From the NCBI RefSeq assembly GCF_003818135.1, contig NZ_RPOH01000009.1, positions 1 through 64,000 of the forward strand: a stretch of DNA of 64,000 bases. Direction: 5' to 3'. Origin of the DNA: Buttiauxella warmboldiae (GTDB lineage Bacteria > Pseudomonadota > Gammaproteobacteria > Enterobacterales > Enterobacteriaceae). Below, piece by piece: positions 36,114 to 37,883 of the stretch. The notes below the pieces were generated by a model. It was not told the DNA's origin. It saw only the letters and a list, made by a program, of their open reading frames with translations, and searched no databases. A program made the translations under genes and the position numbers. Every line of letters starts with the position of its first letter. The first letter of the stretch is position 1.

Positions 36114-36157
36114 GCAATGCGGTTTACTGCTTCTTCAAACACGTACTACATCGAAAT

Positions 36158-36260
36158 TGGTGGGGCGTGCAGGATAATGACTCGTCTCATCCTGAGACTC
36201 GCCCTCCGGGCCGCCACAAATGGCGTTCAAAATCGTTCCCGACGATTTTGTCGAACCTGC
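36158..36260 (-). pseudogene. tRNA-Lys remnant split by a hairpin-rich insertion
   Basis: The last 18 nt of tRNA-Lys (36158-36175) and the adjoining 10 nt of its T-arm (36251-36260) are both present and would be contiguous in an intact gene. They are separated by 75 nt (36176-36250) inserted in the T-loop. The 5' two thirds of the tRNA are missing. The insert folds into four successive perfect hairpins, and a fifth uses the T-arm sequence. It cannot yield a tRNA but may be part of the operon transcript. Confidence 0.75.
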
Positions 36261-36308
36261 TACAGGTTCAAACCCTACACGTTCACTTTCTTCGTACTAC
36301 ATCGAAAT

Positions 36309-36384
36309 TGGTGGGGCGTGCAGGATTCGAACCTGCGACCAATTGATTAAAAGTCAACTGCTCTACCAACTGAGCTAACGCCCC
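36309..36384 (-). tRNA. tRNA-Lys(TTT), first gene of the operon
   Basis: Identical 76-nt copy, promoter-proximal. The spacer between this copy and the remnant is about 48 nt. Confidence 0.97.
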
Positions 36385-36548: not shown

Positions 36549-37340
36549 TTACATGGCATTCAGACGTTTTTGCGCCTGCTTTGCGCCATCGGTATTCGGG
36601 AATTGTTTGATCACCTGTTGATACACGGCTTTCGCTTTTGCGCTATCGCCTTTGTCCTGCATGATCACACCGACTTTAAACATAGCATCCGGGGCTTTAG
36701 GTGATTTTGGGTAGTTTTTCACCACCGAGGCAAAATAAAATGCCGCATCATCCTTTTTCCCCTTGTTGTAATTCAACTGACCCAGCCAGTAATTGGCATT
36801 TGGCTGATAGGTTGAATCCGGGTACTTCTTAACAAAGCTCTGAAATGCAGCGATGGCTTCGTCCTGACGGGACTTATCCTGCACCATAGCAATAGCAGCA
36901 TTGTAGTCGCTGTTGGCATCGCCTCCCTGCACTGGGGCCGCCGGAGTGCTGGCTGACGCACCAGCATCAGGTGCTGCTGTCGCAGCAGCACCCTGATCGG
37001 TTACACCCGCAGCTTGCCCTGCAGCAGCGCCGCTACCGAGGCTGTCTATCTGCAATAAAACTTGCTTCTGGCGCTCAACAACCTGATTCAGTTGATATTG
37101 GTTTTCCTGAATCTGGCCGCGCAGGGAATCAATATCACGTTGGTTATCAGCGAGTTGTTGTTGGAGTTGGGTTAAGAGTTGACTGTGAGCGTTGGAAATA
37201 CGCTCGAGTTGGGTGACACGGTCTTCGACCGAGCCTGAGCCGACACTACTGATTGGCGCCTGAGCAGTAGCGGCCCAGGGGGCCGCTATGCCAACCAGTA
37301 ACGACAGACTCAACAAGTGATGTCTGAGGTTACTGTTCAT
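36549..37340 (-). CDS. cpoB: CpoB (YbgF), cell division coordinator
   Basis: Periplasmic protein that couples PBP1B and Tol energy state during septation. A signal peptide (hydrophobic LLSLSLLVGIAAPWA, cleavage near ATAQA) is followed by a trimerising coiled coil (about residues 35-100), an Ala/Gly/Pro linker and a C-terminal TPR domain with repeats such as YNKGKKDDAAFYFASVVKNYP. It has 263 residues as in E. coli. It begins 9 nt after pal at the end of the tol-pal operon. Confidence 0.95.
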   Translation of the reverse strand: MNSNLRHHLLSLSLLVGIAAPWAATAQAPISSVGSGSVEDRVTQLERISNAHSQLLTQLQQQLADNQRDIDSLRGQIQENQYQLNQVVERQKQVLLQIDSLGSGAAAGQAAGVTDQGAAATAAPDAGASASTPAAPVQGGDANSDYNAAIAMVQDKSRQDEAIAAFQSFVKKYPDSTYQPNANYWLGQLNYNKGKKDDAAFYFASVVKNYPKSPKAPDAMFKVGVIMQDKGDSAKAKAVYQQVIKQFPNTDGAKQAQKRLNAM

Positions 37341-37349
37341 ACTGTTCTC

Positions 37350-37883
<534 letters not shown>

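Follow-up and report, generated by a model that had tools for sequence, protein, structure and literature searches.

The tRNA operon for lysine and valine in Buttiauxella warmboldiae raises the question of what a hairpin-rich stretch that includes part of a tRNA-Lys sequence is doing between two of its genes. We analysed the first 64,000 nucleotides of contig NZ_RPOH01000009.1 (assembly GCF_003818135.1), referred to here as the window. As the initial annotation of this DNA had proposed, the operon contains five genes; ARAGORN identifies four for tRNA-Lys and one for tRNA-Val, on the - strand in the order Lys-Lys-Val-Lys-Lys. It is preceded by cpoB, an assignment supported by an RF02782 match, and followed by what is presumably nadA. 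The match to RF02782, the CpoB_ybgF thermometer family, is strong (145.5 bits; 37311-37449, - strand). The spacer between the first and second tRNA-Lys genes measures 195 nt. The first spacer of the operon in the other genomes compared is 185 nt long in two cases, 168 nt in one (before Val), 63 nt in one, 44 nt in four and 25 nt in one. The 151 nt by which the window spacer exceeds the 44-nt form are the element reported here.

The stretch 36158-36269 had been described as a tRNA-Lys remnant that had lost its 5' part and been split in its T-loop by 75 nt. Its structure is real, and the tRNA-Lys 3' end and the next stretch of the T-arm are both retained on the - strand, separated by 75 nt (Table 1). 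What the account of a missing 5' part overlooks is an inverted near-copy of the tRNA-Lys T-arm and acceptor strand, which lies beyond the T-arm stretch and pairs with the copied 3' end, and the element is a composite rather than a truncated tRNA gene. Read in the RNA sense, the start of the spacer is followed by the inverted near-copy, a short loop, the direct T-arm copy, the 75-nt module, the remainder of the tRNA-Lys 3' end and then the start of the spacer again. The RNA of the composite folds into a single outer stem that closes five hairpins. The element is an RtT-like composite on a copied tRNA-Lys 3' end that has at its core a copy of a separate mobile module.

Table 1. Features of the composite element and its surroundings in the window.
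Feature	Positions	Strand	Basis
tRNA-Lys gene transcribed immediately before the composite	36309..36384	-	ARAGORN
Direct repeat, copy 1: tRNA-Lys 3' end and 16 nt of spacer	36293..36326	-	100% identity over 34 nt with 36142-36175
Direct repeat, copy 2: copied tRNA-Lys 3' end and 16 nt of spacer	36142..36175	-	100% identity with 36293-36326
5' arm: inverted near-copy of the tRNA-Lys T-arm/acceptor strand	36263..36281	-	Sequence; fold pairs it with the copied 3' end
T-arm 5' half, direct copy reaching to the T-loop (CAGGTTCGA, RNA sense)	36251..36259	-	Sequence; hairpin with the 5' arm
Mobile module of 75 nt; insertion point GA^AT in the T-loop	36176..36250	-	R1 match 36177-36251, 100.3 bits
Module hairpin 1, 9 bp, loop CGGGA	36228..36250	-	Fold and R1
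Module hairpin 2, 5 bp	36212..36225	-	Fold and R1
Module hairpin 3, 4 bp, loop GGA in the window copy	36201..36211	-	Fold and R1
Module hairpin 4, 6 bp, CAGGAUG at the loop	36184..36198	-	Fold and R1
Copied tRNA-Lys 3' end, terminating in CCA	36158..36175	-	Sequence; 3' end of the RtT match

The five hairpins named at the outset are all present in both the MFE and the centroid fold of 36150-36300. The folding energy of this stretch is -60.2 kcal/mol, compared with -40.9 +/- 4.2 kcal/mol for 200 dinucleotide shuffles (z -4.6), none of which folded as well; the 75-nt module alone gives -28.7 kcal/mol (z -2.9), a value matched by 2 of 200 shuffles. A stretch of 121 nt recurs with 95% identity at another Lys operon of the same genome. 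The variation of operon spacers among relatives could suggest that the element is decayed spacer or a product of chance folding. We find this scarcely credible and have ruled it out, since it is contradicted by the z score, by the second Lys-operon copy and by the compensatory changes described below.

The likeness to the rtT repeats of the E. coli tyrT operon that had been suggested for this locus was borne out. The RtT family model RF00391 aligns over its full length (1-130 of 130) with 36158-36294, the alignment ending in the copied tRNA 3' end, at 40.7 bits (E 7e-7); this score is under the gathering cut-off of 45, and we make no claim of formal RtT membership. The composite shares with RtT/rttR the outer stem and the sense position after a tRNA gene, from which it is separated by 58 nt on the same strand. 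It is unlike RtT/rttR in being attached to tRNA-Lys and not tRNA-Tyr, in having a hairpin 1 of the 9-bp module type, and in bearing GGA in loops where the E. coli copies have none. An RtT-type element beside tRNA-Lys is not new in itself, because cases are known from Actinobacillus pleuropneumoniae, where Northern blots gave signals for RtT RNAs located next to Asn and Lys tRNA genes (from the accessible part of PMC4986893), and from the E. coli lysT operon. The K-12 lysT operon has five RtT matches above the cut-off (60.0, 58.8, 54.9, 54.4 and 46.7 bits), and all but one of the alignments have their start within the tRNA-Lys gene upstream. In MG1655 these five matches carry no annotated RefSeq feature, and among the four K-12 stretches fetched, RefSeq annotates rttR only. 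The rttR annotation spans 171 nt, and its end coincides with the CCA of a tRNA-Tyr 3' end copy. Elsewhere in the window genome, RtT-type matches occur after Pro, Ser and Tyr (two) and at the second Lys operon, one match is cut by a contig end, and two weak matches follow 5S rRNA (E 1.5 and 2.2; one was judged by eye at a contig end).

To describe the core in isolation we used a covariance model, R1, built from nine cores and having 75 positions and 24 pairs. Four of the cores came from tRNA-Lys spacers, four were of a tRNA-Phe type, and one came from a 23S-5S spacer; three of the tRNA-Phe type lie beside a tRNA-Phe gene and the fourth beside a copied tRNA-Phe 3' end, in a retrieved stretch where no tRNA was found. 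The window copy, which belonged to this training set, is the sole R1 match in the window at E <= 10. A copy outside the training set, in the E. coli rrnB spacer between what we take to be terminators T1 and T2, has the same four hairpins and scores 60.6 bits (E 1.7e-15); its flanks are copies of the 5S rRNA 3' end, whereas those of the window copy are copies of tRNA-Lys. Three further untrained copies, intergenic and all inside ERICs, score 43.6-51.7 bits, the E. coli lysT and tyrT copies 21.8-30.1 bits, and the copy after Pro only 9.1 bits (E 0.31).

The module, at about 70-85 nt with four covarying hairpins, occurs in many unrelated contexts, which by R1 include the rrnB T1-T2 spacer, four internal sites in ERICs, other repeats, and the region after tmRNA, where two modules were found. 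ERICs (IRU, RU-1), especially long ones, host it near position 83, at 36-48, near 102 and at 51-55 in the coordinates of the E. coli ERIC consensus printed in PMC2759123; one ERIC (L103) contains two modules. The ERIC itself is a 127-bp host element and differs from the module, which is absent from that printed consensus. At nine loci, modules are within another palindromic repeat (gagcgatcgtcgg, module, cgaatcgcgaacgacc, with variants) that by eye is unrelated to ERIC. Near-identical modules occupy two further repeat families, at ten loci in genome G501 and six in genome G377, and most of the G501 repeats have ends resembling TTAACGTGAAAG...GAGAGTTAA. G501 has 15 R1 matches, 11 of them equal in score, and at least 10 among the matches listed fall within one repeat family. 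At six loci modules adjoin a terminator-like sequence (agccctgtac...), which in one of them (L107) stands on both sides of the module. Two modules appear by eye to be inside a coding sequence of the Rhs-family type.

At E <= 0.001, R1 matched 96 of 247 genomes from the order, spread over 13 families, and 125 of 321 from the class. In a sample of the phylum 54 of 249 genomes matched at the same threshold, 34 of them from outside the class; one family supplied 33 of these and a second family the other. These scans scored 15-19 candidates per genome, so the module copy numbers they give are lower bounds; in four genomes of the genus for which 150 candidates were scored, there were 12, 21, 28 and 34 matches at E <= 1. 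Scanning named genomes with a 34-nt pattern returned 24 stretches, from Alishewanella, Cedecea, Budvicia, Enterobacter, Buttiauxella, Rahnella, Proteus, Dryocola, Serratia, Hafnia, Aliiglaciecola and one member of the Enterobacteriaceae. Among E. coli genomes, 3911 of 5426 have a place that covers at least 80% of a 136-nt query around the rrnB copy, and an ERIC-type module was matched in 603 of the 5426; BLAST of the window module itself against E. coli gave no match. Carriage by phages or plasmids was rejected, as the window module matched 2 of 50,697 phage records at E <= 0.01 and, at E <= 0.001, a single plasmid record among 72,556.

Among the small RNA families in our Rfam scans, RtT, AaHKsRNA22 and, once, rsmX alone overlapped modules. 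AaHKsRNA22 (RF02902), a small RNA of Aggregatibacter, matches relatives of the module at 33-41 bits, one of them above the cut-off of 39.8, whereas the window copy reaches only 20.2 bits. In genome G738, two loci (L226 and L227) have modules arranged head to tail with a period of about 74-77 nt. The first of these also has a P14 small RNA match, which does not overlap the modules there.

The initial annotation had raised the possibility of a mobile element associated with tRNA genes, with other occurrences at tRNA loci. Many further copies beside tRNA genes were found. ERIC sites that are filled in one genome and empty in another bear out the mobility of the 75-nt module. The case for the composite as a whole is less clear, because the 34-bp direct repeats would also allow gain or loss by recombination. 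Sister spacers at the window site contain the whole composite, another type of core or none, and clean filled and empty pairs were seen at ERICs only. Two ERICs of the window genome carry a module (L091 and L083), and each was aligned with 11 sister genomes. At the first site, eight of the 11 sisters have the ERIC without the module, one has a remnant and two have none. At the second, eight again have an ERIC lacking the module at this site, one of them (L182) having a module at another site of the same ERIC, and three have none or a fragment. The clearest pairs contrast an empty CACCCGA^ATCACTTAC, found in three sisters, with CACCCGA, module and ATCACTTAC in the filled form. Either gain or loss may lie behind these pairs, which were compared among sister genomes.

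Sister genomes can thus differ in whether a given site holds the module, which sits at GA^A(T) and duplicates 0-1 nt of the target. In 189 distinct copies, the letters before the module's first A are G in 137 and A in 175, a profile that the window junction in the T-loop (TTCGA and ATCC) fits. In E. coli EEC_W5 a module-bearing ERIC lies between panC and rpnC; MG1655 has neither ERIC nor module there, which implies that the two came or went as a unit. A second place, in KE47, has other neighbours in MG1655 and was left out of the comparison. Insertion inside hairpin loops was rejected, since the joined flanks (88 clusters) pair across the site no more than 377 random GAA sites do (7.5 and 8.8 pairs). 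The flanks are more stable than those random sites, at -15.4 compared with -12.5 kcal/mol (p 2e-6).

Beside tRNA and tmRNA genes the module is nearly always downstream and in the sense orientation. Within 300 nt of such genes there are 59 distinct copies, drawn from strong R1 matches rather than from a random sample, of which 52 are in sense and 54 downstream. The downstream copies comprise 47 in sense and 7 antisense, and the five upstream copies are all in sense. tRNA-Phe accounts for six of the seven antisense copies; the remaining one (L200) is also preceded, about 115 nt upstream, by a tRNA on the copy's own strand. At five loci the module is opposite to tRNA-Phe and adjoins a copied tRNA-Phe 3' end.

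Compensatory changes, whose absence among relatives would have pointed to decay, proved frequent among module copies. In 94 copies (88 distinct), 97.4% of cells are paired and 20 of the 24 pairs have changes on both sides. As measured in this alignment, which was fitted to the model, 451 cells are double-changed compared with 125.6 after shuffling, and the covariation score is 0.589 compared with 0.172 after shuffling and at most 0.063 with the partners slid. A MAFFT alignment of nine sequences that preceded the model gave 19 double-changed cells compared with 8.1, and a covariation of 0.277 compared with 0.123; two of its five measures, double-changed pairs (6 and 5.0) and further pair types (10 and 10.5), were not above the shuffles.

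While the stems change, the loops of hairpins 1 and 4 keep GGA, which is present in hairpin 1 in 74 of 88 copies and in hairpin 4 in 66, compared with 10 each for hairpins 2 and 3. Among 180 distinct copies, both hairpins 1 and 4 have GGA in 42 of the 58 linked to tRNA and in 88 of the 122 others. The CsrA-type consensus CANGGANG, often located at hairpin 4, occurs in 67 of the 180 copies, compared with 6.1 after shuffling, and in none on the opposite strand; CAGGAHG occurs in 124. Plain enrichment of GGA was rejected, bare GGA being found in 160 of the 180 copies and in 166.7 after shuffling. These loop counts come from copies that share descent and were found with a model trained on GGA-bearing cores. 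We think the resulting bias is probably small, because most copies score above 40 bits and six loop letters, at the model's mean of 0.75 bits per position, would cost about 4-5 bits.

Taken together, the loop motif, the copy of a processing end and the bias towards sense favour a role as RNA. We give roughly an even chance to the following reading: that this is a mobile RNA module whose RNA would be co-transcribed with the tRNAs and released on trimming of the copied tRNA 3' end, and in which hairpins 1 and 4, whose stems change while their GGA loops are conserved, may form a paired protein site, most probably for CsrA/RsmA. The RNA would then be a small decoy, supplied in step with the transcription of stable RNAs. 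That the annotated E. coli rttR RNA ends at a CCA of this kind suggests release by tRNA 3' trimming. CsrA motifs are hairpins with GGA and are generally paired, according to the accessible part of PMC4383904, and the SELEX consensus given in that of PMC5694010 is ruACArGGAugu, with GGA in a hairpin loop. The window copy contains GGA in three loop regions (hairpins 1, 3 and 4) and so, judged by its letters and predicted fold, has the paired GGA loops of a putative CsrA/RsmA ligand. In the phylum sample, csrA is found in 50 of 54 genomes with the module and in 108 of 195 without it (Fisher p 6e-8, confounded by phylogeny). Counting against CsrA, four module-bearing genomes have no csrA match, one of them (G268) being 100% complete, and the E. 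coli rtT and lysT copies by eye have no GGA in the loops of hairpins 1 and 4. CsrB and RsmX-type RNAs resemble the module in their GGA-loop hairpins, and one module relative scores 44 bits with rsmX; this is under the rsmX cut-off of 56, and the module, unlike those RNAs, has one or two predicted sites per copy and not many. CsrA is the best candidate partner of the module RNA.

The same observations could be accounted for by selfish DNA, a serious rival and a real possibility, though one that we do not favour. The module would be a non-autonomous mobile element whose hairpins some enzyme recognises as folded DNA, the covarying stems and conserved loops would reflect that enzyme, and the transcripts would have no use. 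The mobility and dispersal of the copies agree with this, as do their presence in both orientations inside ERICs and, by eye, in Rhs-like coding sequence, and the greater stability of the insertion flanks; the sense bias beside tRNA and tmRNA genes and the failure of pairing across the junction to exceed controls do not. A role in RNA processing or stability appears improbable. According to this explanation the hairpins would protect ends or guide ribonucleases in tRNA and rRNA maturation, with no protein decoy, and rtT RNA would act in the stringent response as reported. It is consistent with the position after stable RNA genes, with the E. coli copies that by eye retain the hairpins without GGA, and with the rtT literature cited in the accessible part of PMC4986893; it is opposed by the many copies that are not near stable RNA genes but in ERICs or other repeats, and it leaves the loop conservation of hairpins 1 and 4 unexplained.

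The larger result is that the core of the window composite is a widespread mobile module common to rrn spacers and ERICs. We consider it rather unlikely to hold in full, as a more general proposal, that an old and still mobile RNA module of the Gammaproteobacteria and at least two families outside them repeatedly places paired putative CsrA-binding hairpins after tRNA, tmRNA and rRNA genes and inside mobile repeats, where they would act as CsrA decoys, and that RtT RNA, Aggregatibacter sRNA 22, the rrnB T1-T2 spacer and long ERICs are all copies of this module. If true, it would join RtT RNA, the spacer of the much-cloned rrnB terminator cassette, long ERICs and an Aggregatibacter sRNA as one mobile RNA module, with a function as a paired GGA-loop protein site tied to stable-RNA transcription. 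The filled and empty sites may also reveal how a small element moves that lacks obvious terminal repeats and duplicates little or none of its target. Small mobile hairpin elements and RtT are already known individually. So are insertions in ERICs, and Wilson and Sharp reportedly described ones of about 70 bp in 2006. In the open literature, which leaves key ERIC and rtT papers uncovered, we found no publication joining RtT, ERIC inserts and rrn spacers; an earlier description is possible.

One further element invites comparison. YPAL/RU-2 of Yersinia is described in the accessible part of PMC2229807 as a small element of 168 bp tied to dyad symmetry, with target duplications of 3-26 bp. It is like the module in its small size and dyad symmetry and in holding CAAGGATG and CATGGATG in its printed sequence; its length and its target duplications are unlike those of the module. 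In Table 1b of PMC2759123, as printed, CAAGGATG and CATGGATG lie within YPAL/RU-2 and have inverted repeats at their flanks; they are the same CsrA-like loop words in a different element.
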